Positions 11,801 through 55,984 of a stretch of DNA of 64,000 bases are shown here, in pieces (within the stretch, counting starts at the first letter, position 1; each line of letters begins with the position of its first letter). The position numbers and the translations under genes were made by a program. Below the pieces are notes generated by a model that had not been told where the DNA came from, searched no databases, and was given only the letters and a program-made list of their open reading frames with translations. This stretch comes from Isoetes taiwanensis (taxonomy: Eukaryota; Streptophyta; Lycopodiopsida; Isoetales; Isoetaceae). Location of the stretch: positions 9,651,712 to 9,715,711 of the forward strand of contig JAJEKV010000011.1 in the NCBI GenBank assembly GCA_021234155.1. Reading direction: 5' to 3'.

Positions 11801-13391
11801 TGTGACGTTCCAGCATAATATACGCCCCAATACGTATATTATACTGCCACGTCACACGTACATGTCACAAGTGACATGTACTTGAGAGTAGGACAACGTT
11901 GCACCTAGGAGCTAAAGGTTGCACCTAGGGGGCAACCTTGGATGTTGGGTATGTAATTAAACATACACAACAAAAGGTTCCTTGTTCATCCATTTCCAAA
12001 TGGCTTAAAGCCATTTGCCCATGTGGATGCCCTAACCTAGATAGGGTCTATATAAGGGCTAAAACCCTAGACCCTAGCTCTCCTTTCACTTTGCCAATTA
12101 GGGTTTTCTAGAGCTTCCTTTCCTCCTTCGCAATTAGGGCTTTCCCAGGCCAATTCGCCAAGGTAAGGCTCGAAATCGCATTGCCAGTTCTCGAAAAGTC
12201 GGATTTGCACAACAAAGTTGCCGAAGTAGCACCGCCTTCGCAAGATCAGAGCATGGACGCCCCGAGGATCGAGCAAGCCAAGGAGCAGTATCTAGTTGTT
12301 CTCACAGTGCAAAACCGTCTTCAGCGCGGGGCAATATGCCGGTTTAGTATGTTAGATCATCTCGAAGCCTTGTAGATCCCTAGATCCGAGACTCTAACGA
12401 ATGAACCTAACATTGGATGTTAAGTAGATAGATTGATATGATTCTCTATCTCTGCTCGCCGATATTGCATGTATTTCACTGCGGATCTCCTTGTTGTGGG
12501 AAGGGGGTAGAGACCTAAAGGTCGTGGTAGAAGATGCTCCTAGCATAGCACCTTAGTTCCCACATAATTGCGCCCCGTGGTACGTGAGCCCACCCGGGCC
12601 GTGGTGAAGGGGCAAGGCCGGTTGATAAGGAGGAACTTGTCTCATCAAGGACCCACCCCTCCGGGTAGTAAAGCCTATCTGGGGTCTTTGGCCGGCTAGG
12701 CTTAATGGCTTGTCACCTGCGTGGGCAAGGCATGAGCTCGACACTGTGGGGTGGTGGACATGACCTTCCAAAGGAGTTCAAGTCGAATAAGGGCAAAGGG
12801 GCCCTCTAGCCGCCAAGGGATGAGCATGGATACCTCCGAGGAGAGGCAGCTCTCTTCCCCGCCTCATCGGGTTGGGGAGATGCAACCCGCCAGTAGTAGC
12901 CCCTCCGCTATTCACCCGGCGCAGCTACGGCCAAGTCCCAACACTTTTCAGCCTACTCGCAAAGTGTGCACCTGGAGGGGCGGATGGAGTGGACTACCCT
13001 AAGCCATGTTCTATGCCAGCCAAATCCATTGCCATGAATTCATGCCCCGCAATGAACTCGAGAGGCCTAGCCGCCGGGCCATCCCCTTGAGTCCGAGCCC
13101 CGGTAGGATCTTTCCTTTGTATTATTGTTATGAAGGTATTGCCGACTCTGTGATGTTGCTATTGTTATGGTGATTGTGTTGTATATTATTAGTTGTGCTC
13201 ACGTTTGTTTGTTACGCTTCCGCAGATAGGTCGATCCGATGGAAGACGGATGAATGACACATCCACTCTTCCCTTGCTGGCTCTGCCCCCATGGGAGTGG
13301 AGTCGTGGATGGCCCCCCCGCCCGCACCGCTGGGGGGAATGCTCCTCCTTCAATAATGATGCGGCAACGATAAGGAGTAGGGGACGCCACA
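11801..13391 (+). mobile_element. Solo LTR nested in the Tat-like element (GCCTC duplication)
   Basis: A 1,591-bp sequence begins TGTGACGTTCC and ends GACGCCACA, flanked exactly by GCCTC at 11796-11800 and 13392-13396. There is no primer site or interior after it, so it is a solo LTR left by LTR-LTR recombination after insertion. It is clearly homologous over long stretches to the 38019-39515 LTR, for example in the GTTACGCTTCCGCAG and GAGTAGGGGACG blocks. A TATA box (TATATAAGG) lies at 12050-12058, and a short ATGGACGCC-starting frame at 12253 also exists in the other copy at 38402. Confidence 0.9.
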
Positions 13392-15748: not shown

Positions 15749-16840
15749 TTGGAACATGAAGAGATTGCACAACTACATCCCATTCTGGTAATAGATGCTC
15801 AACAAGAGAAAGAGTTAAAAGAACTGACTATTACCAAGAATGATGAGATTAGAACTCTGTTTCTAGGAGATATGTTTAAAACTCAGAAAGAAGCATCATT
15901 ACAAGAATTCTTTGAAGAATGGAAAGATGTATTTGCATGGGATTACACAGAGTTGGTAGGTGTAAAGACCGAGATATGTGAATTTGAAATAAAGATGAAA
16001 GAAGGAACCAAACCCGTCATGCAAAACCGAAAAAGATAAATAGATCCTTGCTAACTTTGATCAGAGAGGAATTATTAAAGATGAAAGAAGCTGAAGTTAT
16101 CACCGAGATAACCAACCCCTGAATGGTCAGTCATGCATAGTACCGTTGAAAAAAAAGAACAAAACTATAATATGCATAGATTATAGAGACCTTAATAAGG
16201 CTACTATAAAAAGATCAAGTATCCACTTCCCTTTCTAGAAGAGGTGCTTCATGCAACTGCCGGTAAAGAGATTTATTCATTTCTAGATGGATTTTCGTGT
16301 TTTAATCAGATTAAAATCAAGGAAGCGTACTCAAGCTAAGACCTCCTTCATAACCCCTTGGGGAACCTTTGCCATGCAAAAAATGCCCTTTGGATTGATG
16401 AATGCATCCGCTACATTCCAAAGGGCTATGGATAAAATCTTTCAAAGCATGCCTCTTGATAAATTTAGGGTGTTTCTTGATGACCTTTGCCTAGGAACAC
16501 TGATAGAGCAACACATGAAACTTCTGACTATGATTATGAGTCTGTGCAGAGAAAGTGGTGTATGATTAAATCCAAAGAAGTGTATCTTTCTATGTTCAAA
16601 AGGTGAACCGTTAGGACATGAAGTATCTGCTCAAGGAATCAAAGTCTCAGAGGGTAAGATGGAAGCACTCAAGAGAGTAGTGCCACCTAAAACTCTGAGG
16701 CAAGTTAAGAGCTTTATGGGACTGACTAGTTTTTTAAGAATCTATGTACCTAATTTCTCACATATTATGGGTCCTATAGCAAATCTGACAAGAGTAGGCA
16801 AGTACAAAGAAAACATGAGAGCAAACATATGGAAGTAAAT
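15749..16840 (+). pseudogene. Reverse transcriptase of the Tat-like element, decayed
   Basis: An N-terminal frame (15749-16039) resembles the RT connector with FEEWKDVFAWDYTE. A second frame (16287-16565) has TPWGTFAMQKMPFGLMNASA (RT motif region) and FRVFLDDLCL, a damaged form of the YxDD active-site box with the Tyr replaced by Leu. A third unlabelled stretch to about 16840 shows the thumb region (LNPKKCIFLCSKGEPLGHEV). Stops and frameshifts separate all three. Order and motifs are those of Ty3/gypsy. Confidence 0.75.
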
Positions 16841-38018: not shown

Positions 38019-39515
38019 TGTGACGTTCCAGTACGATATACGGTCTCAAGACGTATACCGTACTGCACCGTCACGCGTACACGCCACTCCAATCGACGTG
38101 TACGCCGACGTGTAACCAAGCAAGGGCGCCCTAGGGGGCAACTTGCAAGGGTGCGCACACTTAGCAATGTGCGCACTTTAAACCTTTAACCTATTAAAGG
38201 CAGACCAAGGGTCATGGAAACCCTAAACCTAACTGAGAGCCTATGTAAGGTAACCAAACCCTAATCCTTCCCTTTTCGTCCACGAACCTTCCGAGCTCCA
38301 GTTCGCGCGCCTGAGGAGTCAAATCCAACTCCCAAGATCTGCCCGTGCGCCCTAGCTCGTCAGATTCTCCTTCCGACCGCATCCCCAAGCAGAACAGCGA
38401 CATGGACGCCTTCGGATCAAGAGGAGCGAACCAGGGATCAGGTATTTAGTCGATTTAATAGCCTAAACCTTATTCCAGCCATCGAACCAATAAATAGAGC
38501 CTATTAAATTACCCTTAGTAGCCAAGCAGATCCCCAGATTGACCCTAACTAAAGAACCTAACTCTATGAGATAGATTAGTTCTTATTCTTTAGTTCTATG
38601 ATGATGTGATGGACGGATGAATTCTGTGGACTCATTGTATTGGGAAGGGGGGTAGAGACTTAAAGCTTAGTAGTTGATGCTCCTAGCTAGTCCCTCTTAG
38701 TGCATTACTAGATTTCGCCTCAGGTACAAGAACCACACCCGGGTTGTGGGTGAAGGGGCGACCGCTTACAAGGAGGTTCGGTGTTCGACTCTTGAACGAT
38801 CCCTCCGGTGTGTAAGGCCTCACCGGGATCATTGTGGACTAGGGTCTAATGGCTTGCCACCGAAAAGGGGCAAGGCATGGGCTCGACACCCGTGGGGAGT
38901 GATGCGTCACTCTCCATTGGGTTCAAGTCGAATAAGGGCGGTGGCCCTCTAGTCACCTTGAGTCAAGCACGTAGATCTCTCGAGGGAGATCCCTACCGCC
39001 CCATCTGAACCGGGAGATGCAACCCGGGAGTAGCCCCTCCGCTATGCATTCGGGCGGCTGATCAGTCCCAACACTTTTCAGCCCTACTGCGCAAAGTGTG
39101 CAATGGAGGGGCGGATGGAGTGGACAACCCTATGCCATGTTCTCATGCCGCCCAAATCCATTGTCATGAATCATGCTCAATGAACTCGAGACTCAAGCTT
39201 GTCAGTCATTCCCTTGAGTCTGAGCCTTGGGTAGATTTCCACTTGTATCGTGCTGATCTTTGTCTATGCAGATGTTGATGTACCACCCTTCGAGGTGGAT
39301 ATGTGATGATTATGTGTACTGACATGTATGTTTACGCTTCCGCAGCTAGGTAGGCCCTGAGGGAGACGGGTAAAATGACCCTTCATTCTTCCCAATCGAA
39401 ACCCGAGACGATTCTGATGATATGTGGAGGGCCCCCAGACGCATGGAGCTGGTATGGGGGATGAACTCCTGTTTGTATACGGTGAGTGCACCGTATACGA
39501 GTAGGGGACGTCACA
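38019..39515 (+). repeat. 5' LTR of the large gypsy element
   Basis: Begins TGTGACGTTCC and ends GGGGACGTCACA, followed by G and then the primer site. It is homologous along much of its length to the solo LTR at 11801-13391. The inner TATACGGT...ACCGTATAC-like motifs near both ends give inverted-repeat character (38037-38065, 39477-39498). Confidence 0.85.
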
Positions 39516-39516
39516 G

Positions 39517-39528
39517 TGGTATCAGAGC
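39517..39528 (+). promoter_or_regulatory. Primer-binding site (Met-tRNA type)
   Basis: TGGTATCAGAGC, one base after the LTR end. Confidence 0.85.
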
Positions 39529-39720
39529 AATGTTCTTGGAGACCAAGAACAAAGCATTGGCCATGCTCCCAGTAGTACTAACTTGATAGGATCTTCAAAC
39601 CTCGAAAAATGGGAAATTTTTTTTCTCATTTTTGTTATTATATGCTAAGCTAGTAATAGTAAGTGAATTAGAATATAAAAAGACTAAAATTAGTGAGCCA
39701 AAACCTTCAAAAGTAGGATG

Positions 39721-40000
39721 GTCTCACACGTCGCGCTAGGAGCAATAATGAAAAGTTCATTTTTGAGCTGGGCGCAACGTGTGAGACATTGAGCCAAAAA
39801 CACTTTGAAAAGTGATGAATTTCAGAAAAGTAACATGGTAATTCGAATTTCAAGCTAAAAACTAGCTAGATTAGTATGTTACATTCCTAAAAACATGCTT
39901 AGAAAGTATAAAATTTAGCATCAAAATTCACCATGTCTCACACGTCGCGCCAGGAGCAAAAATGAAACTTCATTATTCGTCTGGGCGCAACGTATGAGAC
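39721..40000. repeat. Two ~67-bp hairpin repeats upstream of the H3-like ORF
   Basis: Copies at 39721-39787 and 39935-40000 start GTCTCACACGTCGCGC and end GGGCGCAACGTGTGAGAC (second copy GTATGAGAC). The ends pair over about 18 bp, and an inner ATGAA...TTCAT pair extends the stem. They are spaced 214 bp apart. Confidence 0.85.
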
Positions 40001-40196
40001 CATGAGGTTAGAAATGTCTAAATTTAGCCATGTAGTAAGATAATAAGTGTCTTGGCTCACCCAAAAGAGTAGTTTGAAATTTGACCTAATGTAGACCTAG
40101 GACCCCCCCCATTTCTACGTTCTTCCTTAGAAAAATCGCTCCCCCTTGCTAAGGCGATTTTTGGGCGCCCGACGTCGGATTGACGAGCTGTCAAAC

Positions 40197-41450
40197 ATGG
40201 CCCCGACGAAACAAACTGCTAGAGTTCCTCCAGGTGATACAACTCCCAGCGCCATACTCCAAGAGATGCTTCGGGAGCGCCTTTTTCACCAAAGAGGCCA
40301 TCCTTCATCGGGTAAAGGGACATCGTCCGAGGAGCATCCCGACAATACCACCAACCAAGGAGGGGATGAGACCGAAGTTGAGGAGGATGCACACCCGTCG
40401 CGGACGTAAGTCCTCGACAATGAGGAACCGTGACGCGTGATGCACTAGGTTTTGAAGAAATAGAGGAGGAAAGGAAGAAGAAGGAGGAACAAGATCGGGT
40501 GGTCAAGATCGGGAAGAACAGAGAGCCGACACTGATCCAAATTAAGAGGAGGAACTAGCGGCGGATAAAGAAGCACGGCTTAAAAGAACGCCACCGAGAA
40601 AGGAAGAGAGAAGAGAAGAAAAGGAAGAGGGACTAAGAGGAAGCCAAAGCAGCCAGAGGAGCCGAGGAGTGAAGAAGGGAAAGTTCGTGGAGGGAGGCCA
40701 AAGAAAACTCAAGAAGGCCCCATGCTCCAAGGTCATCATCCAAGAGCTGCTCGAGACCAGCCCCCACCCTCCTGATGACTCCTGGAGGATGAGGACTTTA
40801 ATCCCTTCAACAAAGAGGCGGGATCTTCAAGGACCCTACCAACGAGCAGACAAACCCGACGACCCGAACAGCCCGAGTAGGCACAGAGCCCCCACCATAC
40901 CCGCGTGGGACGTAACAACAAAGCGCCAGCCCGCCCGAGGCGATGTGATAGACCCCGCCAAGGTCTATCGAAGAAACTAAGGGGAGCACAACGCCTTCAT
41001 GGCGAAGTGGGAGGCGTACAACACATACTATCAGGAGAACAGAGATGCGGGCCGTCAAGGTGGAGTACCCCCAAGAAGACGCCAAGCCACCCCCGAAAGC
41101 CCAAGCCTCCTAGACCACCGGCAAAAAGAGAACCGCGCGAATCGGAGAGCGAGAGGAAAGCCCCGAGAGAGATCGGGCATTTTCGTAGAAACCGGGTTTT
41201 GATCCCCGCGCACCGCTTAGCCCGACTAGTCCGAGAGGTAATCCAAGAATACAACACGGAGATGAGGGTGACGGATGAGATGTTGCTTTGGCAATCGCAA
41301 GAAGCAACAGAACAAAAAACTAGTGCAGCATTTTGAAGATTCGGCCGGCCGCACGGTCCATGCAAAGAGAGTGACACTAATGAAGCCCGGGACATGCATC
41401 TTGCTAGCTACATCAAGGGAGAGCGGCCAATCGTAAAATTTTGTAAATAA
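40197..41450 (+). pseudogene. Histone H3-like ORF inside an LTR retrotransposon, decayed
   Basis: The ATG at 40197 opens MAPTKQTAR..PG, identical to the histone H3 tail start at eight of nine positions. The frame ends after 70 residues (40407). The same phase resumes as an open frame before 40905-41336 and ends in an H3-like fold: REI (41166), LIPA (41199; this is the CENH3 wording), RLVRE (41223), then TEMR, QEATE (41298) and, after a one-base shift at a T run (41331), FED, HAKRVTLM (41359-41382) and, after another shift, DMHLASYIKGERP (41391-41430), stop at 41448. Order and spacing match H3 helices alpha-N to alpha-3 with one-residue gaps. About 250 codons of basic, Pro-rich sequence with a GGRPKK AT-hook-like motif (~40686) separate tail and fold and contain several stops. 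Residues unlike H3 are many, so it is a diverged relative. A chance match is very unlikely. Functionality today is unlikely. Confidence 0.8.
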
Positions 41451-41580
41451 TAGAAAATTTTTGTTAATATAAAGAGTTTTTGACAAAGTAACATGTGCAA
41501 TCTTGCTTAATTGAGTTAAGTTACTGAGTTCTAGCTTTTGTTTTAGTTAAAACTGACCTTTTGAACAAAATTGAGAGGAT

Positions 41581-41848
41581 GTCTCACACGCCGCCGCCAG
41601 AGCGCGAAAGTGAAAAGTTCATTTTTGTCCGGGTGCAACGTGTGAGACCATGCCCCAAAAGTGCCCAAAACAGCTCCAAATCGACCAAATAAGGGGTCAA
41701 TTCTGCCTAACTCGATGAGTCTAGCAGAATTAGACCCTTACATCACCAAAATTAGACAAGTTTAACCCATTTGGAGTCAATGTCTCACACGTCGTGCCAG
41801 GAGCAAAAATGAAACTTTCATTATTGGTCTGGACGCAACGTGTGAGAC
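41581..41848. repeat. Two ~67-bp hairpin repeats downstream of the H3-like ORF
   Basis: Copies at 41581-41648 (GTCTCACACGCCGCCGCC...GTGCAACGTGTGAGAC) and 41782-41848 mirror the pair at 39721-40000, spaced 201 bp. Flanking bases between copies are weakly alike too, so each pair may be part of a ~200-bp repeat unit. Confidence 0.8.
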
Positions 41849-42161
41849 CTCTCAGCAAATTCTCCACCATGCCATATCCAAATGACCTCTAGTTTGTTGC
41901 AATAGGTTCATTAGCTAATCTTAGCATGCTCAAACCCCAAAAGTATTCTTCAAATCCTCATTTGAACCTCCTAATAGGTCAGAATTGCCCAACCCCAATA
42001 AATTTCTAAGTCATCCAAAAATTAGGGTTTTTTCCTTGTCTATAAATAGGCCTCCATTTCCCACTTGACACCCTACAAGTCTGCTCTTGACCCTTTAGGC
42101 GATTTTCCAGCTCCCATAGGCGCTCCTGCATCTGTTTGCTAGTCACACCTTCCCCAGAGCA

Positions 42162-42771
42162 ATGGCAACTGCTGACTTCAAGCGATGGTGCGAAGCGGAT
42201 GCACATGCGGTAGAGACCAATGTCAACAACATCTTCCAGCTTTTCCAGAAAGAGATTGATGTCCAAGCAACCTTGCATGCAACGCCAGCATATAGGCGAG
42301 TCTTAGCTGAGTTCCAAGCTAGGGTAGGTCAGTCCCTAGTGCAGCTTCCCCCTTGCACGGGCTATTTTATTCCCCGCCCATCCCTACAAGCAGCCTTGGG
42401 TGATGTTCCGGACATTGCCAAGTGACCAACAAGGACAGAGGTTGCCAGACTATATGGTCCTGACAGTTGACAGGACCAAGTACTTTTCCTACACCGCCGC
42501 CTTGGCCATATTCCTTTCCCACCGTGCTGAAAACCCAATGGGGGAAACCTCTATTCCTCCCATGGAGGTGGACCCCATAGCATCCTCGGCAGCCAGAACC
42601 GGATGCTTTTTGCAAGCACCAAATGAGCGAGGGAAGGAAGAATGTAAGAAGAGGAATCGGCCGAGGAAGAGTATAACGGAGCTCGACCCGGAAGAAGAAT
42701 GGCGGCAAGCGAAGAGGAGCTACACAACCGGCGAAGCGCCGGACCCTCCCGAGTCACTCCCTAAGATTGCA
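42162..42771 (+). pseudogene. Unrecognised ORF of the gypsy element, cut by the chromovirus insertion
   Basis: An 87-codon frame starting MATADFKRWCEADAHAVE, helical and charged, overlaps a second frame (42400 on) continuing to PPESLPKIAD at the insertion boundary. The second part has RSYTTGEAPDPPES and a basic run GKEECKKRNRPRK. I recognise no domain. A frameshift near 42410 probably joins the two. Position between leader and Gag suggests an extra upstream ORF, as known in Ogre-type elements, but homology to those was not seen. Confidence 0.4.
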
Positions 42772-42960
42772 GACACTTGGCGTGGCACGCTATCTCACCA
42801 CCCAACCCACGAGCCCCTCGGCTATGACCACAAATGCCCCGTGAGCTCTCCCGAGCTACTATATAGCATGCACCCCTTTGGTCCATCTTTTGGACCAAAG
42901 CCCTCTTTGGACCCAAAACCCATCTTTGGACTCCACGCCCTTAGCATATAGCATTCCCCC
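42768..42960 (-). repeat. 3' LTR of the nested chromovirus
   Basis: Matches the right-hand copy through GGCACGCTATCTCACCACCC, the TACTATATAGCATGCA block (TATA-like TATATAG) and the end CATATAGCATTCCCCC. A purine run AAGAGGGGGG on the minus strand precedes it. Confidence 0.75.
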
Positions 42961-43066
42961 CTCTTGACATTGCAAAAGTCCTCTCTGGCACAAAGGGTAT
43001 CTAAATACCTTTAGCCATCCGAGCATAATCCTTCCTTGGCCCTCGCTTAGGCGGCTAGTAGAAGCA

Positions 43067-43642
43067 TTAGCGGACTTCCTCTTGTCCCTCTTCCGTTGCT
43101 TTCCGATCTTTATATTCTCTAAGAATATCCGGATAAGCTTCTAAAACATTGCCACGCACCCATGAAGCGTCCTCCAAAGGTTTGTGAGCGAACTTAACCA
43201 AATATTGTCTTGAACCACTAGTGGATTTATCCGCCAAAATTGTTTCCGGCTCTAGAACTTCGGAATCATCAATCAATTCTGGCTCAGTTAACCTCCCAAG
43301 TTGAGGTAACTCCTTACCATGATAAGCCTTTAGGAATGAAACATTCACTACATCATGCATTTTCCAACCTTGAGGCAATCTTAATTGATATGCATTCTCA
43401 TTGACCACTTTAATAACTTGAAATGGTCCATGGAAACGGGGTGCCAACTTAAGATCCTTCTTGCGCGCATCTTTCTTAAAGTGGCCTTTATGGATCCTCA
43501 TCCATACCCAATCTCCTTCCTTAAAAACTATTGGTTGCCGCAACTTAGATGATTTATTTGCAAAAGATGCTTGAGCATCTCGTATACGAGCTTGAAGCAA
43601 GTCTATGAGATCCTTATGCTCAATAACCAAATCATCGGCCAA
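43067..43642 (-). pseudogene. Integrase C-terminal part with chromodomain
   Basis: The 191-residue frame contains the integrase GPY/F region (KLAPRFHGPFQVIKVVNENAYQL written here in parts: FHGPFQVIKV, AYQLRLP) and a C-terminal chromodomain: EPETILADKSTSGSRQYLVK, then PLEDASWV and PDILREYKDR. The aromatic cage is partly kept (Y, W). Chromodomains are thought to guide insertion into heterochromatin. The open frame is intact over all of it. The N-terminal methionine is arbitrary, since coding continues from the integrase core. Confidence 0.8.
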
Positions 43643-44337
43643 TGAACATCTTCACACACTCGAAAGAGTGGCTCCCGCACAGGCTGACCATAGACCGCCT
43701 GAAAAGGAGTCATCTTTATGGTAGACTGATAGGTATTATTATACACAAATTCAGCAATAGGCAAATACTCTTCCCAATGACCTTGATGTTCATTGACAAA
43801 CCCCTTAAGATGGAACAAATAACTTTATTGACCACCTCGGATTGTCCATCGGGCCTGGTGAAAAGCAGTGGAGAACCTCAACTCTGTCCCCAATTGCATA
43901 AATAATGCCTTCCAGAATTTACTAGTAAACTTTGTATCACGATCGGATACAATAATCTTTGACAAACCATGTAGCCTAAATATCTCTTTGATAAAGAGCG
44001 TAGCCGCACTATAAGCCGTCAACTTATCCGAACAAGGAATAAAATGAGCGTGCTTAGTTAAACAATCAACAATTGTCCAAATGACAGTGTTCTTGCGAGA
44101 ACTGGAAGGAAGACCAACAATAAAATCCATAGTGATCTGTTCCCACTTTGCCTCCGGAATAGGCAAGGATAAAGGAACACCATGAGGTTTCTTGTTCGCT
44201 TTCTTTATCCGTTGACAAGTAACACAATGCGAATATGAACCAAAACATCTCTCCGTAATCCAAAGCCAAATAAAGTATGGTTCAAGCTTTGCCAAAGTTG
44301 CCCCCCACGCCCAGATGACCCCGTGGAGGTGCATCAT
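43642..44337 (-). pseudogene. Integrase core of the nested chromovirus
   Basis: One frame (44337-43825) has CVTCQRIKKANKKPHG (zinc module end), WEQITMDFIVGLP (first Asp) and IVSDRDTKFTSKFW (second Asp). The next (43818-43603) carries the part with the catalytic Glu region (GHWEEYLPIAEFVYNNTYQS) and TPFQAVYGQ. A frameshift near 43830 separates them. DDE order and distances fit Ty3/gypsy. Confidence 0.8.
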
Positions 44338-44586
44338 GGACTTCTTTAAGAATAAGTGATCGAAAATTCAACAATGCATAGCTTTGGACCTTTATACAAG
44401 AACCCATTAACGATCTTATATCCATATGCATTGCCATTTTGAGCTAACAACCAAATATCCTTATAATCGTGGGTCGGTGGCATACAATGGCTTCATTTCC
44501 TCCAAATGGTTGGATTGTGCTATAGAAAGAGAACAAACCGCATAGCGTCTACTTAAAGCATCGCCTACAACATTCTCTTTACCGAT

Positions 44587-45407
44587 TTATAATCCACTCG
44601 AGAAATCATATTGCCGCATAAAAGCAACCCATTTCAACTGCCTTTCCGATAATGTTTTCTCAGAAACAATGTGCCTAATGCTTTGGTGGTCGGTCAAAAT
44701 ATGAACTGCTGACCCTATAAGATAGTGTCGCCACACTTTCAAAGCATGAATGATGACCGAAAAATTCCTTATCATAAACACTATATCTACTTTTCCGTGT
44801 CGAAAAACTTTTCGACTTTCATAAGCAATAGGATGACCATCCTGCATCAAAACAGCCCCAAAGCCACACCACTTGCATCAACACATAACAAGAAAGGTAG
44901 ACCAAACTTTGGCAAACGCAGAAACGGGAGGATTAACCATGGCATCCTTTAAAACTTGGAAAGCAAACGATGATTAAGATTCCATTGGAAAGGAACATCT
45001 TTTGGTAGCAACAAATATAAATCTGAAGCTAAACGAGCAAAATTGTACAAACTTCCTATAATAACTGCATAAGCCCAAAAGGAACGCAATGCAGCAACTG
45101 AAGTAGGTACAGGCCAATCCACAATTGCTTGTACCTTACTGGGATCAACTTTAAGACCCTCAACAAAAACAATATGACCCAAATATTCAATTTCCGATTG
45201 GAAAAATATACTTTTCTTAGGATTAAGAGTAATAGACTCACCCTTAACCGACCGGAAAACCTCTCGCAAAATGCAAGTAATGATCTTCCCGGACTTACTA
45301 AAAACTAATATGTCATCAAAGAACACGACAACATAAACACCATGCACATCTTCAAATATTAGCCCCATTAGCCTCAAGAAAAGAAGTTTTGCGATTTGTA
45401 AGTCCAA
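44587..45407 (-). pseudogene. RT palm/thumb and RNase H, frameshifted
   Basis: The 45407-44949 frame has [13 protein letters not shown] (active site FxDD, with Phe in place of the usual Tyr, as often in this family) and LGHIVFVEGLKVDPSKVQAI. The 44850-44587 frame has YESRKV, TDHQSIRHI and RQLKWVAFMRQYDF, i.e. RNase H. A small frameshift lies between. The match to other chromoviruses is clear. Confidence 0.75.
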
Positions 45408-45515
45408 ATGGCATGACTAAAACTCATAATGTCCAAAGGTTGTCCTAAACGCAGTCTTGTGAACATCTTCAAAGCGCAACCTTAAGTTGCCAATACCGAC
45501 TTAAGATCAAGGCGG

Positions 45516-46453
45516 CTAAAAACTCGTGGCACCTTGGAGTTGATCAAACAAATCATCCGCCCTTGGTATAGGAAACCGATTCTTTATGGTTATCTTATTC
45601 AAAGCGCGATAATCTATACACATGCGCCAGGAATTATCTTTTTTCTTAACCAACAAGACAGGAGCACCAAAAGGTGAAGAACTATGGCGGATCAATCCAG
45701 CTTGAAGCAACTCATCAAGCTGGCGCCTAATCTCAACTTGTTGGCCATGCATTCTCCGATAAGGAGCTTGATTAGGAGGTTCTTTCCCAGGAAGAAGATC
45801 AATCCTGTGGTCCTCCAAACGTTGGGGTGGCAAAGTTTGTGGAATTTCATTTGAAAAGACATCATCAAAATAATGCAAAAAGACTGTTTGACGCTCATTT
45901 AATGGGGATACTTCTAACTTAGAACGCAAAACCACCAAATACACAAAATGAGTTTTCATTGCCAAACGTTTAAACTGAAGTCCTTTCTTTAAAACTCGTG
46001 CGGCGAAAGATCGAACAGTTTCCATGTTTTGTTGGGTCAACTTATTCCATTCCGCGATAAGATCGCGCTCCCAATTATGACCCAAAAAACGATTTTTGAT
46101 TTGCTTTTCAAATTCCGCAAAGGTAACAATAGGTTGATCGACTGGCTGGTTCTTCTGGATATCGAGCCACCAGTCCTTTGCAACCCCATCCAGATGACGC
46201 TCAGCAAAATATAACTGAGTGTCCTCGTCATCCTTAGTCTTAGCAAAATATGAATTCAAATCCCGAAGCCACGCGAATAAGTCATCCGCATCACTAGTGG
46301 CAGCGGAATACTTTTTGAATTCAATTTTGACATTGGCACCCGTTTTGATGCCACTACGTGGACGCTTCCGGACAGCTTTTGCTGCAATTCGCCCCCGGCG
46401 GCCATGAGAGAATCCAATTCTTGCAGCTCATGGTTCGAGCCTCGGCGGTACAA
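45516..46453 (-). pseudogene. Gag fused in frame to RT; protease deleted
   Basis: The frame starting at 46259 ([10 protein letters not shown]) has Gag residues ([28 protein letters not shown]) to about residue 95. It then passes directly into the pre-RT linker ([20 protein letters not shown]) and RT ([40 protein letters not shown]) with no zinc knuckle or protease between. Upstream coding sense to 46453 ([18 protein letters not shown]) belongs to the Gag start after a frameshift. The 248-codon fusion is open. It is a deletion derivative, since normal chromoviruses have about 250 codons of knuckle and protease there. Confidence 0.75.
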
Positions 46454-46571
46454 AGTTTTTCTCTCATGAGCGAATTATCATGCTCTAACTCAAAAAAGTT
46501 TTCCTTGAGCTCTTCATCTTCCAAGTTAACATTGGCGGGGAACCGCCATCAAACTTGTTGCTCGATACCAC

Positions 46572-46768
46572 TAAAACACACACTTGACGGTGGCACGCTA
46601 TCTCACCACCCAACCACGAGCCCTCAGCTATGACACAGCTGCCCCAGAGCTCTTCCCCGAGCTACTATATAGCATGCACGCCCCTTTGGTCCATCTTTGG
46701 ACCAAAGCCCTCTTTGGACCCAAAACCCATCTTTGGACTCCACGTCCTTAGCATATAGCATTCCCCCA
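46572..46768 (-). repeat. 5' LTR of the nested chromovirus
   Basis: Homologue of 42768-42960. Its minus-strand start is TGGGGGAATGCTATATGC. The primer site lies directly inside. Confidence 0.75.
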
Positions 46769-46796
46769 CTAGGGCTAGGCATCACAAGCCTAGCCC

Positions 46797-47484
46797 CCAT
46801 CATCATTGACGCTGAGGAGTACCTACTCCCGCCGATATCCGCTCCCCAAATGCGGGGAGGGAGTTTCGCTTGACGAAGTTGTTGCACCAACGGCGGCAAA
46901 GAACTGCACTTTGACGACTTCATCGTCCGGGGAGTCTCAGACTTCCCGCTTCAAGTGAGAGAAGCCGACACCTATACACGGGAGTCGACTTCGGACATCC
47001 AGGCCTACAGCAACATAAGGCAAATAATGGAAGATCGAGAACTGCCATCTGAGGAGGAGTTCTATGCCATCCAAGAACGGATGGGGATCCGTGCCAAGAC
47101 CACGAGCATCTTGATGTCGAGCTCCTCGACACCACCTCGCACAAGAGGAGCAGGAATCGACGTCAGGCGAGTTTCAACGACAATTAGAGACTACCAAGAA
47201 ATCAACAGGTAGAGGTGATGAATACTGCGGAAGGCATAGATCGAGAGGCCAGCGGTGGAGAGTCATCGACCCAACACACAATGACAATTCGTTGAGGTAC
47301 TACCTTCCCCTTTCTGGCCGATGGTAGAATAGCGGTACTACACCGCAAATTCAGTCCCCGGGGCGAAGAAGGAGTGTTTATGCTCATTGCACTCTCTGGC
47401 TTTGGCATGCATGCTCGAATAGCTGCAAACGTCGACTATGCTGTCTTAGTCAAGAGAGCAATGACACTTGACATCTTGACTTAG
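46797..47484 (+). pseudogene. Unrecognised ORFs between the insertion and Gag of the gypsy element
   Basis: One frame (46955-47212, with upstream sense from 46897: HFDDFIVRGVSDFPLQVREA) is charged and helical (YSNIRQIMEDRELPSEEEFY). A second stretch (47296-47484) reads FLADGRIAVLHRKFSPRGEE and LALVKRAMTLDI-like segments. No domain is recognised. They are probably the continuation of the ORF at 42162-42771, interrupted by the chromovirus. Stops at 47210 and 47275 break them. Confidence 0.35.
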
Positions 47485-47815
47485 CGTGCCCCTACCGAAT
47501 CGGCCAGGGAAGATTGGCGAATAACGCCTACACCTCCGGCCATGAGTAGAGGAATTGGTGACAAAATTTACGGTGGGGGACGTCAACCAATGTCCTTAGG
47601 AACTTGGGACGCTCGGTAGGAACGGCCCAAGTCAAGAAATTTCTAGAGGATAACCCATCCTACCAGCGATTTCAAGAGTAGTTAATATCTTGATCCCGGA
47701 GGACTTGTATCTAAAAATATTATGTAATAAAAACATTTTGTGCCAATATTTAAAAACTTTGTTGATTGTATTTGGTTCCAAATATTTCGGCAAATATATG
47801 AATACAATAAAGTAA

Positions 47816-48674
47816 ATGAATCTAACCGTAAGGCCATGGCCAACTGTGTATGCAGATAGGGAACAAAGAACAGTCGAACAAAACAGGAGGCTCAACAGAG
47901 ACGAAGTGACATCTGATAGGCAACCCATCCCAAGGAACCTGTTCGAAGCATATGGTCCCATGACCCCAGACGAGGAGATGTCGCAAATGCGAACGGAACT
48001 GGACCAGATAAAGGCTCTACTGGCGGCACAAGCATCATCCGGGCCGCATACGACACCTCGAAAGTCGGGGAAGGATAAGAAGAGGAGTAAGAGAAGGAGG
48101 TCCCCTAGTACAGAAACCTCCGACTTAAGCTCGGTCTCGGACTCTGAGTCCGAGAAGGAGGCTGAACAAGTGCTTCGGACCGTGGACGCGACGTATGACG
48201 ATAAGGCCTTAGACTACCAGAAGAAGGTAGACTCAGCATTGGGCAATGTGCAGACAGAAGGACGATAAGGCCTTAGACTACCAGAAGAAGGTAGACTCAG
48301 CATTGGGCAATGTATGGAAGGCCCGAAAGCTTCAACAGTTCTCAGGCGAGAACAGATCAGGCTTGGAAGCAGAGGCATGGCTTGACGAGATGAGCGAGTA
48401 TGGCAACACTTACGGGATGAAAGACAAGGACAAAGGCAGGGTGGCAACAGCCAACTTGAAGGGAGCCGCACGCATCTGGTGGAAGGGTTATGCCAAGGCC
48501 AAGGCCTTCAAGCGCCATTACGTTCCACGGGAACATAAGTCCAACATGATGCAGCAGTTTTATAGGTTGCAGCAAGGGTACAAAACAAAGGCGTATACAA
48601 TCGAGGAGTTCATGAGACTAAGGTCGATATGTGCCGGGTTGAGTGAAAAGCACGCAGCGGGAGAGCTACATTGA
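47816..48674 (+). pseudogene. Gag of the large gypsy element, split by a 64-bp duplication
   Basis: The first frame (47816-48268) has a helical start, SQMRTELDQIKALLAAQ and a Ser/Lys-rich stretch (KKRSKRRRSPSTETSD). The second (48246-48674) carries the Gag core: SGLEAEAWLDEMSEYGNTYG, NLKGAARIWWKGYA and EFMRLRSICAGLS. The frames are separated by a 64-bp tandem duplication that shifts the frame by one. Removing it would join them. No zinc knuckle is clear between 48675 and 49130, which is stop-rich. Confidence 0.75.
48197..48324. repeat. 64-bp tandem duplication in gag
   Basis: GACGATAAGGCCTTAGACTA starts at 48197 and again at 48261. The copies differ mainly at the junction. It causes a one-base shift of the Gag frame. 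Confidence 0.9.
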
Positions 48675-49262
48675 AGAACCGAACGAAGAGATCCGTAAGC
48701 GCGGGCAATAGACCCCAAGACGGCATCCGGGCGTAATCCAAAGCAATCGCCTTGCAAGGATCGGGCCCTTAACGGGCAGCATGCAAATAGCCGCATTACC
48801 GTGATAGAGGCAAAGCAACAGGGAGTTATAGCCCTAGGGTAGCCAGCCCAAGTCCAGCAAAATCCCCATATAGTGGCAACCATGGGAGACAGCAGGAAAG
48901 GAAGCAGGTGTCCTTCAAGGACAAGCAGGAGGGGTCGAACTACTCAAAAGCAGTGCGATCTTTCTTACAAGCAATGCCCAAAGAGAAGAGACAGGAGTGT
49001 ATAGAGAAGCAGCTTTTGCTTCCGATGCTTCCAACCGTGCCACGTAATCCGCTTAACCGCCCTTCGGCCATGAGCGCCATGAGTTGGGTGAATGGGACAC
49101 TGTCTCGACGATGACGGGCGAGGCAAAGACACGACTACATTCAGGGTGAGTGTCACATTTTCGCCGCCATAGATACAGAACAAGCAGAGAACCAATATAA
49201 GGTAATTTCCACAGTAGGGAAGGCCAAGGCCAAGAAGTAGCCACAACTTTGCATCTCCAAGA

Positions 49263-50868
49263 ATGGTTGAGATGTTGAAGTTGAAACCATTGAAGTCCAA
49301 GCCGAGACCTGTAATCTTGGCAAGTGGAGCAATAAGACATACGGCAGGGAAGAGGATCAATTTCGACATTGACTTGCCGGGAATTAATATCCCGATGGGG
49401 GCAGAAGTAATGGGCATCGGCAAGTACGACTTGATAATAGGAATGGAGTACCTTGGACCAGCAGGGGCCATCATTGACTGTGAAAAGTGGAAGGTGACCC
49501 TCACAACGACCGACGGCAAAGTTATTGAGATCACAGGTAAAGAAGTTGCTCCCATCATGCAGTGCATGTCTATTAAGAAGCAACTCAAGTCAATCAAGAG
49601 CGAGCAGGTAGCATACATCTTCAAACTTGAGATTGAAGAACCCGAGTCGGAGGGAAGCAAGGAAGACAAAGTGCTCAGCAAGTTGCCCAAGCAAATAGCC
49701 AACTTGATCACAGAGTTCCACGATCTCTTCCCAGATGAGATCGAGCAACTTCCTCCTTACAGGGGAGTCGAGTGCGAGATAGCACTCGAACCAGGAACCA
49801 AACCGACGAGCAAGGCTCCGTATAGAATGACGACGCAGGAACTGACGGAGCTAAAGAAGCAATTACAGGAATTTCTCGACCTAGGCTTCATTAGACCTAG
49901 CGTCTCACCATTTGGGGCACCCATTCTCTTTGTTAAGAAGAAGGATGGCAGCTTGAGGATGTGCATAGATTACAAACAACTGAATAAGCACACCATCAAG
50001 AACAAGTACGCACTCCCCCGATCGGACGACTTGATGGATCAGCTCCAAGGGGCAAAGGTCTTCTCCAAGATCGACCTAAGGTCAGGTTACCACCAGATTT
50101 AGGATAAAGGAAGAAGACATCCACAAAACGGCCTTCAGGACCAGGTATGGGCATTACGAGTTCACGGTAATGCCATTTGGGCTATCAAACGCCCCAGCTA
50201 CGTTCATGAGACTCATGAACGACATCTTCAGAGAATTCTTGGACACCTTCGTGATAGTGTTCTTCGACGACATTCTAGTGTATAGCAGATCCATTGAAGA
50301 ACATGCACAACACGTAAGAAAGGTGCTCGAGAAGTTGAAGAGGCATCAGTTGTATGCCAAGTTGTCGAAGTGCCACTTCGCAACAGAGAAGGTGGAATAC
50401 CTCGGTCATGTGATTTCAGCAGAAGGAATCTCGACGGATCCCGCCAAGATTGAAGCAGTGATCCAATGGCCAACACCAAAGAACGTCCACGAGGTCAGAA
50501 GTTTCCTCGGCCTAGCAGGGTATTACAGGAAGTTCGTGAAGAACTTCGCAAAGATAGCAGCCCCACTAACAGACTTGACGAAGGCGGAAAAGATGAAAAA
50601 TTGGGCAGACCATTGGCTTAAGAAAGCCCAAGCAGGATTTAAATTGTTGAAAGAAGCTCTAACAACCGCCCCCGTCTTGACCCTGCCAGACCTAGAGAAG
50701 GACAAACTAGTGGCGACAGACGCAAGTAAGATAGCCACAGGTGCAGTGCTCATGCAAGAAGAGCGGGTAATAGCGTATGACTCCAGGAAGATGAACGATG
50801 CCGAGACACGCTACCCGACGCACGATCAGGAATTACTTGCAGTTGTCAGAGCGTTAAGAATCTGAAGG
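49263..50868 (+). pseudogene. Protease and reverse transcriptase of the large gypsy element
   Basis: The first frame (49263-50102) has a protease part ([20 protein letters not shown]; the expected catalytic DSG reads ASG at ~49320) and RT start ([40 protein letters not shown]). A frameshift at 50100 leads to 50170-50865 with [26 protein letters not shown] (active site) and [20 protein letters not shown], ending in RNase H ([29 protein letters not shown]). Protein-level preservation is good apart from the shift. RT subtype looks like chromoviruses. Confidence 0.8.
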
Positions 50869-51485
50869 CACTACCTCTTAGGAAGGAAGTTCTAATTGGA
50901 CACGGATCACCAGAGCCTCCAATATGTATTCACGCAACCACACCTTAACCTGAGGCAACGAAGGTGGATGGAGTTTCTCGAAGAAACAAGGTTGCAAATT
51001 AAATAGGAGTGTTGCAGCACTCCCGTTTAAAGATTCCCTCTAAAAAAAATACCATGCTCTTAAAATTGACCTTTTTTGGATAAACTTGAGAATTTCAAAA
51101 GGTTCAGTTTTTCTTCCCCTCATTTTGGCCCCTCATTAAGTGACAAGTTTGTTTATTGCAAGGAAACAACCTTGAAAATGGCAAAATATAGACATGAATA
51201 CATAATCTCTGAAAGTGAGATATCAAAAACATCAAAATAGAGAATAAAAAATAATAATTATTTCTTAAAAAAATTCCAGTACATCAATTTGGCACCCCCA
51301 AAATTTGGTGCATATTGAACAATACGCTCGTCCGACGCTGCAACTAGATATCTGTCTCAAGTCTCCATGTTTAGTTGTTCTATCAAACATGTTTGACGTT
51401 CTATTGGCTGAATAAAAAACAAGAAAATAATCAAGTAATTAAATGAACATTAGGACACATAAAACAAAAAAATGTAAAGACAAAA

Positions 51486-51715
51486 GTATTCTGGAATACA
51501 CTTTTGCTTTTTAAAAAACAAACATGTATTCCAGAATACACTTTGAATTTTCAGAGAAAGCAAAAGTGTATTCCGGAATACACTTTTGCTTTCTTGAGAA
51601 AACAAATGTGTATTCTGGAATACACCTTTGCTCTCTAAGAAATCAAACAAGTATTCTGGAACAACGTATATTCCGGAACGTGCATCCTAAGAAATCAAAC
51701 GTGTATTCCAGAACG
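51486..51715. repeat. ~41-bp tandem array with TTCnnGAA palindromes
   Basis: GTATTCYRGAATAC 14-mers occur at 51486, 51526, 51568 and 51610, and degraded at 51651 onward, at steps of 40-42 bp. The one at 51568 is the centre of a perfect 38-bp palindrome (51556-51593). Four more copies lie at 54693-54725 and 54908-54990. Each contains the TTCnnGAA core of heat-shock elements. Confidence 0.85.
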
Positions 51716-52606
51716 TGCACAGTTGTTGTGTTTTTCACATTCCATTTGCTTCTTCTCTGTAAAAATGGAAGGCAAATCCATGCCATAGCTTCACTGCCAA
51801 AGCCAGCATAGCCAGCATACTCAAAGAGAGTCTTGCCTTTAAAGTCTGCTATATTTGCACAACATACTCACAATCTATAAACAGTCGGATAACACCTCCA
51901 CCATAATTCCATAGCTGTGCAAATCAATTATGTAACTCAAGTGCCCATATAATGCATATTCCGGTGCAACCAGCAAAATCTCATGGGAATCTTTTAAGGA
52001 AAACTTCAAAGCTAGTTGGAACAATGCAACTGGCGCTTTAGTTCAAAGCAGAAAGAAGAGGATATCAGAGGCTTAAAAATGTAATGGGCTTTGCTGTAAC
52101 CCGTGGAATTGTGCTAGCTGTTTGCATCGAATATCACAGGATTTAGACATGCATTGAAGCAGGACTATAACCCTGGATCCATTTTGAGCTCCATGATGAG
52201 AATTTTTCGAGTTGGCAGGATGATCATATCCCCCATGTTTCTTCTCCCCCATGTTTCTTCACAGAGGCATCAAAAGCATCTGCCAAGAGGGACTGTCAGT
52301 TGTAACACTCATTAGCCCATATGTTCGTTAGCCCACGCGTCTAAGATGCCAGAGAAAATGCTTACTTACAGTACTTATAACACATAGCAATTAGAAGTTT
52401 AAGTTAATTAGCAAAGCATTGATGGCTAAAATTCTAGTATCTAATGGAACAGTATATTTTGTTGTCTACTTAAATACATGACTTTAAATAACATTGGCCA
52501 AAATATACTACAATATCATGATCAAAGTTCAGCAGAAAACATGCTTGATTGCTTGACATGAGAAAAGTCACGTATTTGGCATGTGATTTGTGTAGCTGTA
52601 CAATAC

Positions 52607-54440
52607 CATCTTTTGAACTGAAAATGTTCCACGTTTATCCTGCGCTAATACTAGGCCTTTATTCTCGCAAAAGGAATGGACTAGAGCAGTAAAAATGGGC
52701 TCGCCATTGGCAATTTCTCCTATGTTAGCTGCTGCATATTCAAGCATTCTTTGCAACAGATCATTTCCAGATCCTACAGAAAGAAGATAAAATCAGGAGC
52801 TAAGGAAGTATGGTTACTATGCATGGTTGAGATCACCAGATTGTGCAATTGTTGGGGTGGAAGCATCACGCCTGGATTTGTGGTGGAAGCATCAATCTTT
52901 AAGTATAAGTCACCTGCACTTTCCTTGTCCAGTATGCTTATGATATCTGCACGAGTACTCCAAAACTTGTCTAATTGTTGCCACATATTGATTCTCCCAA
53001 TCTGGAGCCTATTAACTTAGCTGGTTGAGCTCTAAATCTAATATGAAGCTAAATCTTGCCAAGTCCTATCTCGTTTAGAATTCCTAGAGCTCCTGAGCCG
53101 TAATTGACACCCTTGAAAATGGCCTTCTTTTTGTACATGGTGCAAGGAATGGAGGTGCAAAAGGAACATCTGACCTGCAACAAACAAATGCCATCATCAG
53201 GGTTGGAATAAACTGCCACGAATTATATCAGGTTTGGTCCTTCCATTGCTGAATCTTCCAGGGGAATCCATGCATGCTTCTCTTAAGCGTACAAGCAGTA
53301 GCTCAAAGGTTCCAGAGAAATCTATTTATGCTTCTCTTAAGCGTACAAGCAGTAGCATGTTTAGTTCTGTCTAATATCAAAATTAAATAATGTGTGCATT
53401 TCTACAAGAGATTGCACTGTTAGGATTTAGTAAGTGCAATGGGATATTTGAACAAGCTGAAGCTCATCGACATGAAATTCCCGACTAACATCTCTGCTTA
53501 TTCTGTCATAGTTAGCTTCAACCGATGCTGCAACCTAAAACTTAAACAGTAAGAAATCTTGCAGAAAGCAATAACTGAGCATCGCTGCTTCCAGACAGCT
53601 TCTAAGAGACCAGAAAACTTCCAAGAGATCTAAAAGCTTCTACGAGACTAAATTGCATCATGGCAATGAAAAACAAGTGATACCGCATTGAAGATTGCCC
53701 AACAAGTCCTCTAAATCCTGAGCATCTAAAAGGAATTCCACTCTTGGCATACACAGCACATTCTTAAGGGTGTTTTGGGCAACCAAAAAAAGGATATGGT
53801 ATGGCAATGTAGGGAAATTTTATCGAAATATTGAGGCAGTTTGCAAAGATATTGAGGCATTCAGAATTTTCCTAAATATAATGATTCGAATTTGCTACCT
53901 TAAAGCACTAAAAGAATGATTACGTTCCACTATGTGCATGATACAAATGAGTTTCTTTACTTACAATTGCAACAACGTGCATAGTTGAGTACTTCACTAC
54001 TTCACTAATGTCTGGTTGGCCACTTGGGATGAGGCGGCAAAGGCCTTTAAGACATGGAGAAAGCACAGTGTTGTGGACACAGGTACTGCATAGAATCATT
54101 CTGACTGTAATTAGAGTTACTCCTTGGAGGATATGAGCTTGGATACATGGCCACGTGAGACTCGAAACTGCCTAGATTGTTTCCTGCAAAATGAAAAAAT
54201 CAGGAGTGTAGGAACTGCCCGGATTGCAAAATGGCAATTTTTACATACCTGAATCCAATGGTGCAGATGCCCGATGCCCAAAATCAACGCTCTCAATTAA
54301 GCTACCAGATGGATACCCAGAATTAACTAAACCAAAGCCAAATCTTGGGGGATAAGCATCTGGGAGAAGACCCGCAGAAGATCTCATATATGATGTGCAT
54401 GCAATTGGTAAAACTGATGCATAATTGTCTAAGCTGCTGC
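52607..54440 (-). pseudogene. Exon-like fragments of a PUF (Pumilio)-like gene carried by the insertion
   Basis: Four blocks bounded by splice-like sites read in the minus direction: 54440-54249 (acceptor TTTTCACAG, donor GTATGTAA), 54183-54087 (acceptor CATTTTGCAG), about 53010-52838, and 52773-52607 (acceptor TTTCTGTAG, donor GTATTG). The last reads DLLQRMLEYAAANIG ... LAQDKRGTFSVQKM, resembling a PUF repeat (xxGTRSVQKM). The first two give Ser/Pro/Tyr-rich sequence as found N-terminal of plant Pumilio proteins. Only a small part of a gene is present, so it is a captured fragment. The PUF identification rests on one short repeat. Confidence 0.4.
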
Positions 54441-55984
54441 CTGTGAAAAGCATTACAGAAATCAGCTTCTTGCAACACTTCCCAAGAGCTGCAACAGCAG
54501 AATCACCCAATGATGGACCTGTTCGTCCAACCCTAGATGGACCTGCTCGACCCTAGACGATGTAGCCAGCGATGGGTTAACATGTCGCCAAAACCAATGC
54601 AAAACCCATCCCACGACAGAAATCATAGGCGCTAAGTCTCCAAAGAAAGATCGCCCAGCAAAACGAAAACTCCAGGTCTCTCTGAAAACCAAAACGTATT
54701 CCGGAATACAAAGTGTATTCCAGAATAAGTTTTCCACTATTATTTAGAACCAAGATCCAGTATCCCTGGTCCAAAAGAAAAAAGAAAAGGAATCCTTTTA
54801 TCATTTAAAGCCATAATCCTGTATCCCCACAAAACAAGCAAAAAAATCGCAAGGTCATTGTTTTAATTTGAAAATGCCAAAAACCTTTGCCTCTTCAAGA
54901 ACAGGATATGTATTCCAGAATACAAAAATAGTTTCATATTTTTTTTTCCTTTCGCTATTCTGGAATAGCAAGTGTATTCCAGAATACAAAAAGGATTTCA
55001 CGTGTTCGAACACAATATCCCTTTTTTGCTACTATATTCTGCTCTTCAAACAAGAGAAATTTGCTAATTTCTAAGACGCATGGAAAACTGGATTTTGGCC
55101 CTTTTAAATCAAAGAACTCTCATCACTTCTGTCATTCTCTCATCACTTCTCATACTTTTGCACAAAATTGAGTATTTTATAAATACTGTAAATTTTGCAT
55201 TTGAATATCAGATTTTATCTTCAATTTTTTAATATACCACAATTTTAGTTACTACTTCATTTTTATTTTAGGTTAAAAGTTATGTTCTCTTAAGATAGGA
55301 GTTCTTTCAAAAAACATACTTAGGAAAAATTCTAGTTGATTGGAAAAGTGTCACTTTGACATAGTCAGTTCTCTATTCGTAGAAAAAGATGGGCTATTTT
55401 GGGGGGGTCAAAATACATTTTTATGTCATCTTTTTCTTTTTAACCTCAATTTAGCCCCTTTTTTGGGAAAAAAATAGAATATTTGAGGAATATTCCTTTT
55501 GCTCTTGTTTAGATGATTTGCTCCCGTTTAATATGCAATCTTGTTAAGAGTATGACTTTGATATAGTCTACAAGCCCGGGAAGCTTAATGTGGTAGCAGA
55601 TGCACTTTCAAGGCATCCGCTGACAACTAGAGTGCATTGCAATGCAATTTCGATGCTCTCCAGCGAATTCGGGAAGAAGATTGAAGAAACGTTGCCAACG
55701 GATGTGGACTTCAAAGAAGTATGGGCAAGCTTGTGCAAGGAAGCGAGAACAGATAAGGAGAGGGAAACCTTCAAAAATTTTAAGAAGGAAGGTAAAAGTC
55801 GTATTTAATTAAAGTGGGACAAATCTTGAATTTTGGGACTCGGACTGAAAATGGGACTCACACACCATAAAAGAAATTTCTGAATTGATTGCTTGAATAG
55901 AATTACACATGACACACATAGAATTGGGTTACTTGTTTTCCTCATAAATTTTACAAACCACTAGTTGAGAAAGTTTTCAAACTT

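Follow-up and report, generated by a model that had tools for sequence, protein, structure and literature searches.

The forward-strand stretch at 40197-41446 of the window, by which we mean the whole 64-kb stretch of DNA that was analysed, is almost certainly the decayed remnant of an open reading frame, ORF-A, belonging to a Ty3/gypsy LTR retrotransposon of the chromodomain type, whose intact copies encode a variant of histone H3 made up of an H3-tail stretch, a long N-terminal extension and a complete H3 fold. The copy in the window is a decayed relic, whereas the family as a whole, here called family 1, is not decayed. Judged from its sequence, the ORF-A product is an H3-fold variant and not canonical H3. 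Domain capture by LTR retrotransposons is in itself known; what is unusual is that a core histone has been captured here and that it is strongly constrained.

The element in the window and its histone relic

The recognised parts of the element lie on the plus strand in the order LTR, primer-binding site (PBS), two hairpins, ORF-A relic, two hairpins, ORF-B, and relics of Gag and protease-RT. The 5' LTR (TG...CA; 38019-39515) aligns with the LTRs of other copies; it matched the 5' LTR of copy L026 inside a 4838-bp alignment at 80% identity and the 3' LTR in L030 at 87.8% over 1518 bp. The PBS motif TGGTATCAGAGC (39517-39528), which we take to be of the initiator tRNA-Met type, abuts the LTR end, as it did in all nine copies inspected. 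Upstream of ORF-A lie an inverted repeat of about 68 nt (39720-39788) and a second hairpin of the same ~68-nt class (39934-40001), and downstream lie two more (41580-41649 and 41781-41849), each of which repeats in other copies. The second extra ORF, ORF-B (MATADF...), survives in two parts (42162-42760 and 46769-47678) on either side of a nested Ty3/gypsy element in the opposite orientation (42761-46768, minus strand), with direct repeats at 42770-42960 and 46577-46767 that are 91% identical; the LTRs of this nested element are just ~190 bp long. The Gag-protease-RT relic (48300-50391) belongs to the same element as ORF-A. Similarity to the element continues to 50984, where a second insertion (50985-55547) splits pol, and restarts at 55548 in a final piece (55548-55785) recognised by its similarity to a family copy. 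Neither the integrase-chromodomain part nor a 3' LTR of this element found a match within the 64-kb window.

The H3 words reported in the initial annotation were all present at the places given for them, with MAPTKQTAR in the N-terminal tail stretch (40197-40223) and REI..LIPA..RLVRE..QEA, FED..HAKRVTLM and D.HLA..I.GER in the fold, which runs from alphaN to the C-terminus (41166-41429). The fold had also been described as lying in a single reading phase, and this was true of REI...QEA and D.HLA..I.GER but not of FED..HAKRVTLM, which is one frame over, so that the fold of this copy is split over two frames. The ORF-A frame of the window contains several stops, and 37 frame-changing gaps separate it from L011, the closest (89.5%) of the four copies compared. 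When all six frames of the window were scanned against H3 (2700 frames of at least 15 aa), the two top ranks (E 0.00073 and E 0.048) went to H3 pieces of this relic, which adjoin each other in H3 order. With the Pfam Histone profile, the first test that had been suggested, the first window piece remained below the cut-off of 26.4 bits (18.6 bits, E 0.0022), while the intact copies were strongly significant. A chance peptide likeness was excluded by the six-frame ranking, by the matching of all 150 genomic places that were scored and by the Pfam Histone matches of the copies. The reading as an isolated host H3 pseudogene dropped into an LTR element was rejected because ORF-A recurs at the same position in other copies.

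Elsewhere in the window, an LTR fragment at 12469-13123 was 74% identical to the family-1 LTR on the same strand. A weak RT match lies at 16146-16550, with no H3 fold detectable there, and together they may represent a more distant relative of family 1.

Genomic copies, a second family and selection

The assembly from which the window was taken (1,658,258,908 bases; 1.66 Gb) was searched with a 59-aa piece of the family-1 fold, which gave 2947 first-look, unscored candidates, of which 150 were scored. The fold was found in other copies, a check that the initial annotation had proposed: all 150 matches were significant (E 7.1e-11 or better), one being the window itself and the rest sharing 62-77% identity. 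According to the transcribed list of these matches, 44 of the 150 lay in frames of at least 300 aa (up to 507 aa), and 40 of those 44 were free of stops inside the match. Twenty copies of 10 kb (L009-L028), selected for long frames, were fetched for further analysis.

An LTR was found upstream in the same orientation in 18 of these 20 copies, the exceptions being L011, where no LTR was found, and L019, where it is inverted. This distribution, the flanking hairpins and the purifying selection described below bear out the original proposal that an H3-variant ORF is part of an LTR element and sits between PBS and Gag. The LTR, ORF-A, ORF-B region, Gag and protease/RT followed in order within 10 kb in half of the copies (L010, L012, L014, L015, L016, L018, L022, L026, L027 and L028, the last with just 101 bp of LTR); the other ten were interrupted, cut short or rearranged, and in L017 and L023 neither Gag nor pol was seen within the 10-kb pieces. 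Two copies were extended downstream. L012 enters a nested element (L029), and L026 yields integrase, chromodomain and 3' LTR (L030), giving a copy of ~12.8 kb with a 5-bp target-site duplication (TSD), GGGAT, identified by eye. The two LTRs of this copy differ at 18 of 1488 positions (K2P 0.0122), a divergence that corresponds roughly to 0.5-0.9 Myr at plant rates. Paired TG...CA LTRs with a TSD were thus found in the single copy tested, and the window copy has a 5' LTR only. Pfam matches in L012 appeared in the order Gag (Retrotrans_gag, 3.8e-14), protease (RVP_2, 1.2e-9) and RT (RVT_1, 6.8e-33), with weak matches to the CCHC zinc knuckle in Gag (0.022 and 0.13), and downstream of RT in L030, the one copy covering this part, rve (8.6e-11), H2C2 (1.1e-19) and Chromo (6.1e-10) were found. 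Compared by eye with HP1, the chromodomain seems to lack most of the aromatic-cage residues. Instead of the terminal inverted repeats and 8-bp TSD of a hAT-type DNA transposon, the element has LTRs, a 5-bp TSD and RT.

The hairpins flanking the frame, which had been pointed out from the window alone, proved to be a recurrent feature under our distance rule, with two upstream and two downstream of ORF-A in 13 of the 20 copies and fewer in the others; L028 falls short because one of its hairpins lies outside the rule. In an alignment of 66 distinct hairpins, 96% of cells form pairs; of the 15 pairs predicted, 7 show changes on both sides. Both figures were obtained without a shuffle control, and the structure to which they refer was derived from the very alignment that was scored. 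This suggests that an RNA or DNA fold is maintained at these sites, possibly one that acts in the RNA during translation, packaging or splicing. ORF-B encodes ~450 aa before Gag (L022:5157-6524), is under purifying selection (omega 0.19) and had no match in Pfam or PDB.

For 14 of 28 family-1 loci the N-terminus was in frame with the fold, with ORF-A lengths of 405-467 aa. These 14 N-termini were MARTKQTARKP (6), MARTKQTARVP (5), MARTKQTTRVP (1), MARTKQTVRKP (1) and KARTKQTTRVP (1), so that 11 of the 14 in-frame tails outside the window begin with MARTKQTAR. A complete H3 fold accompanied the in-frame tail in 11 of these 14 copies, under a rule (complete in one frame) that left out 6 of the 28 loci. 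Pfam Histone matched four intact family-1 ORFs at 1.2e-23 to 2.3e-27, and the solved chains closest to one of these ORFs were H3.1 and H3.3. Tail and fold are separated by an extension of ~320-380 aa, which had been characterised as basic and AT-hook-like but is in fact of mixed charge (K+R 21%, D+E 21%). In the tail, position 9 is K in seven and V in seven of the 14 sequences and position 10 is P in all of them. The motif KAARKSAP was found in none of 25 ORFs of both families (14 of family 1 and 11 of family 2), and family 1, rather than carrying the canonical tail ARTKQTARKS and the K27 region, retains residues 1-8 or 1-9 only. In the fold, loop 1 has the length of that of H3, without the longer CENH3-type loop. 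Counted over folds of equal length (18 of 22 in family 1), the residues C110, H113, R116, D123 and L126, which we take to be H3-H3' or H3-H4 contacts, were kept in 17-18 of 18 family-1 and 19 of 19 family-2 folds, R63 was P in 18 of 18 family-1 folds, and R129 was mostly substituted in that family, with H the commonest replacement (8 of 18).

The second family was discovered by accident downstream of L012, with its near-canonical H3 fold at L029:2794-3135. This one element has the order H3 ORF, ORF-B relative (24% identical to family-1 ORF-B), Gag and protease-RT. Its Gag is 66% identical to that of family 1 over 98 aa and its protease 49% over 130 aa; on sequence comparison families 1 and 2 are one element lineage, in which at least two families carry an H3-type ORF. 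A search with the family-2 fold gave 7852 first-look, unscored candidates, and all of the 150 that were scored were significant. Eleven ORFs were complete under our own rule (409-420 aa), starting with MAITKS (7), MANTKS (3) or MANIKS (1), and the fold opens with KPHR[F/Y][R/K]PGTVALREI. Pfam Histone matched two family-2 ORFs at 2.5e-41 and 1.3e-40. H3 residues 1-36 are missing from all 11 ORFs read, save for a possible echo in MA.TK. The N-terminal halves of ORF-A could not be aligned between the two families, and the N-terminal part of family 2 gave nothing convincing against PDB (best E 0.54).

Selection was estimated as omega by the Nei-Gojobori method over copies, with saturated, very close or short pairs excluded. 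The initial annotation had named dN/dS below 1 across copies as support for a domesticated cargo, and the median omega of the family-1 H3 fold was indeed 0.062 (134 of 190 possible pairs). The corresponding medians were 0.036 for RT (36 of 36 pairs), 0.092 for Gag (89 of 105), 0.115 for protease (45 of 55), 0.187 for ORF-B (136 of 136) and 0.238 for the H3 extension (162 of 190), and no pair reached 1 in any element part. The family-1 H3 fold is therefore under strong purifying selection, about as strict as that on Gag and RT. In 152 of 153 pairs, from 18 of the 20 copies, pN of the fold was lower than the divergence of the non-coding spacer just after ORF-A. Against expectation, synonymous divergence of the fold exceeded that of the spacer (0.62 and 0.24 in L009-L028); one idea is decay of methylated CpG at GC-rich third positions. 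Median dS between family-1 copies was ~1 in a run from which L002 was left out, its motif not being found, and in which omega was usable in 246 of 351 pairs; we conclude from this divergence that ORF-A has been retained for a long time. The family-2 fold gave an omega of 0.033 (159 of 171 pairs; 19 of 23 loci) in a sample of good matches that is more biased than that of family 1. All these values apply to well-kept copies, since L009-L028 were picked for long frames and the family-2 loci came from top-scoring matches.

Possible roles of the element-borne histone

Much of the silencing of transposons operates through marks that histone H3 carries. An element with an H3 of its own, its tail altered or missing, that is kept like the element's own enzymes would directly attack, or exploit, H3-based silencing. 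We tentatively favour, with slightly more doubt than confidence, a mechanism in which the ORF-A protein, made from element RNA, goes into nucleosomes with host H4 instead of host H3 and hinders silencing based on H3K9 and H3K27. The directly observed parts from which it starts are the ORF, its position, its fold homology, its retention and its selection. The protein would be translated from element RNA, imported to the nucleus, paired with host H4 and incorporated into nucleosomes; the element would profit most if these lay on its own DNA, either new cDNA or an integrated copy. Host H3 would there be replaced by a variant whose tail differs at, or is missing, the usual silencing sites, and the resulting chromatin would resist H3K9/K27-based silencing, such that the element stays expressible. 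Given the kept interface residues and the strong constraint on the fold, the simplest function would be to pair with H4 and become part of nucleosomes. The region containing K9, S10 and K27 is changed or dropped in both families, which would point to an escape from tail-based silencing. Counted against a place in nucleosomes are the proline at R63 and the frequent replacement of R129 in family 1, and the extension of 321-378 aa could hinder ordinary packing; the unexpected excess of synonymous over spacer divergence also counts against the mechanism. A self-reading loop through methylated H3K9 is unsupported because the chromodomain seems to be without most of its aromatic-cage residues.

The idea put forward with the initial annotation, that the H3 variant marks chromatin or steers integration, is plausible. 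In its integration-targeting form, the H3 fold would give the pre-integration complex a hold on H4, histone chaperones or nucleosomes and so direct insertion into chosen chromatin, which might be replicating chromatin or, in the case of the CENH3-like family 1, that of the centromere. The grouping of the family-1 fold with plant CENH3, the presence of an integrase chromodomain (one copy) and the alteration in both families of the stretch at H3 86-90, which we take to determine chaperone choice, are consistent with this. However, ORF-A is separate from the integrase, and family-1 places appear by eye to be spread along large contigs (e.g. nine at 3.5 to 49.5 Mb on C907), and we consider targeting unlikely to be the main role.

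Less probable again is that the histone serves to condense element cDNA, or to shield it, in the particle or en route to the nucleus. ORF-A adjoins the structural genes, the constraint on its fold is about that of Gag and RT, and its extension is rich in charged residues, all of which would suit such a packaging role. H3 on its own does not wrap DNA, however, an H4 partner was found in none of the element parts read, with the proviso that ORF-B has no known fold, and Gag already has a zinc knuckle of its own (a weak Pfam match).

A tail lacking the other sites and mimicking the H3K4 region would fit a reader decoy equally well, in which the N-terminus, being exactly ARTKQTAR, would draw off H3K4 readers, writers or chaperones of the host and the fold would do no more than stabilise the protein. 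ARTKQT is identical to H3 in 14 of 14 in-frame tails, which were themselves located by that motif, and the extension, taken in its entirety, changes quickly (omega 0.24). We nevertheless regard the decoy as very improbable: no part of family-1 ORF-A is as constrained as the fold, and family 2, with MAITKS, MANTKS or MANIKS in place of ARTKQTAR, has a stricter fold still (omega 0.033 in its biased sample). That ORF-A has no function and is an H3 pseudogene, once captured and since propagated in copies of which many, including that of the window, have decayed, is scarcely credible given omega values of 0.06 and 0.03 with no pair at 1 or above, the presence of the fold in two divergent families, and the persistence of 85-87 of 99 residues (six folds compared) in spite of saturated synonymous sites to host H3.

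Relation to known systems and origin of the folds

In our searches of the open-licence PMC literature we found no retroelement-borne core histone, and viral contig and plasmid collections yielded no relatives. A review from 2026 on how plant transposons capture genes does not use the word histone in its accessible text (PMC13317346). Chromoviruses are chromodomain-bearing plant Ty3/gypsy LTR retrotransposons, and a survey found those with a chromodomain cage in non-seed plants only (PMC6317226). The seeming lack of most of the cage in our element thus speaks neither for a reading of H3K9 methylation nor for a non-seed host. Our element resembles chromoviruses in having LTRs, a primer site of the Met type, a zinc-knuckle Gag, the order protease, RT and integrase, and, from one copy, a C-terminal chromodomain and a 5-bp TSD, but differs in that two extra ORFs precede Gag, of which the first encodes an H3 variant and lies between pairs of hairpins (PMC6317226).

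Capture of other host domains is illustrated by the Gypsy elements of Phalaenopsis, which carry a 2-ODD RNA demethylase; the same screen of extra domains in LTR elements of 121 flowering-plant genomes detected fifteen, PMD and G-patch among them, and the nine of these fifteen that are named in the portion available do not include a histone (PMC9289625). In both cases a host domain has been fixed as an additional ORF and kept through rounds of replication, but the protein captured here is a core histone (PMC9289625). Capture of H3 coding sequence and its amplification with a transposon are shared with the hAT DNA transposons of Dothideomycetes, which, in the sections of the paper available, account for 784 H3-like copies in P. 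fijiensis, where the amplified copies are RIP-inactivated, and for putatively functional ones in P. tritici-repentis (PMC6710886). Unlike those fungal copies (PMC6710886), the H3 described here is encoded by a retrotransposon, carries a long extension and is strongly constrained. Parasitic elements that encode core histones also include large DNA viruses (PMC9145170) and a bracovirus, whose H4 joins host nucleosomes and alters expression via an extra tail (PMC5423620), both as described in the portions consulted; unlike that H4, the histone here is H3 and is carried by a retroelement (PMC5423620). The accessible text of the viral-histone review contains no word beginning with retrotranspos- or retrovir- (PMC9145170).

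The wordings LLIP, HFQ, R.T.E.L, VTLM and DM of the family-1 fold, and the long variable N-terminal region, are as in plant CENH3. The CENH3 hint of the initial annotation held in part: the fold grouped with two CENH3 sequences (96/90), although other placements were not rejected at 0.05 with all rows, and loop 1 is of H3 length; unlike plant CENH3, family 1 has no loop-1 insertion, begins with the ARTKQTAR of H3 and is element-encoded. The tree comprised host H3, both families and reference histones including rice and Arabidopsis CENH3, and it placed family 1 with the CENH3 pair and family 2 with H3 (84/47). Constraining the two families to form one group gave p-AU values of 0.06 with all rows and 0.19 before host H3 was included, neither of them rejected at 0.05, and a borderline 0.049 when two fast rows were left out. 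For family 1 forced to the H3 side, joined to H3 or joined to host H3, p-AU was 0.09, 0.11 and 0.18, and none of these three placements is rejected.

The origin of the folds thus leans slightly, on present comparisons, to two captures. We find it somewhat probable that family 1 derived from a CENH3 gene and family 2 from a canonical or H3.3-like H3 gene, as opposed to one capture followed by divergence. The tree, the low p-AU of the joined families (0.06, or 0.049 without the fast rows) and the failure of their N-terminal parts to align favour separate events. On the other side, the joint-family and H3-side placements of family 1 are unrejected with all rows and involve long branches, both families belong to the same element lineage, the start MA-x-TK occurs in 13 of 14 family-1 and 10 of 11 family-2 N-termini, and family 1 has its loop-1 length, E77 and L90 in common with host H3. 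In the host, which is probably a non-flowering plant, the one H3 gene read has Y41, E77 and L90 and differs at all three positions from flowering-plant H3.1. Among the element folds, E77 and L90 occur in 18 of 18 of family 1, L90 in 19 of 19 of family 2, and E77 and Y41 in some of the latter. The six family-2 folds compared with host H3 had 85-87 of 99 residues alike, with synonymous sites saturated (pS 0.83-0.93).

That the lineage took in two host variants, one CENH3-like and one H3.3-like, as extra genes with which it builds its own nucleosomes, and that element-borne H3 genes far outnumber those of the host, is as a whole doubtful. If true, element and host would compete over chromatin composition. 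The element H3s would also serve as natural experiments on the residues needed for deposition, silencing and centromere identity. With canonical H3 as the query, 9022 first-look candidates were obtained, and the best 150 were scored. They comprised 15 whole-protein matches at 96-98%, which are likely the host H3 genes (one was read), and 135 partial matches at 86% or less. All 13 of the partial matches that were read were element-borne, with the family-2 extension or its remnants replacing the H3 tail, and for these 13 stretches that extension sequence excluded host H3 genes as the source. Most H3-like frames scored in this genome therefore appear to be element-borne, which is a warning for annotation.
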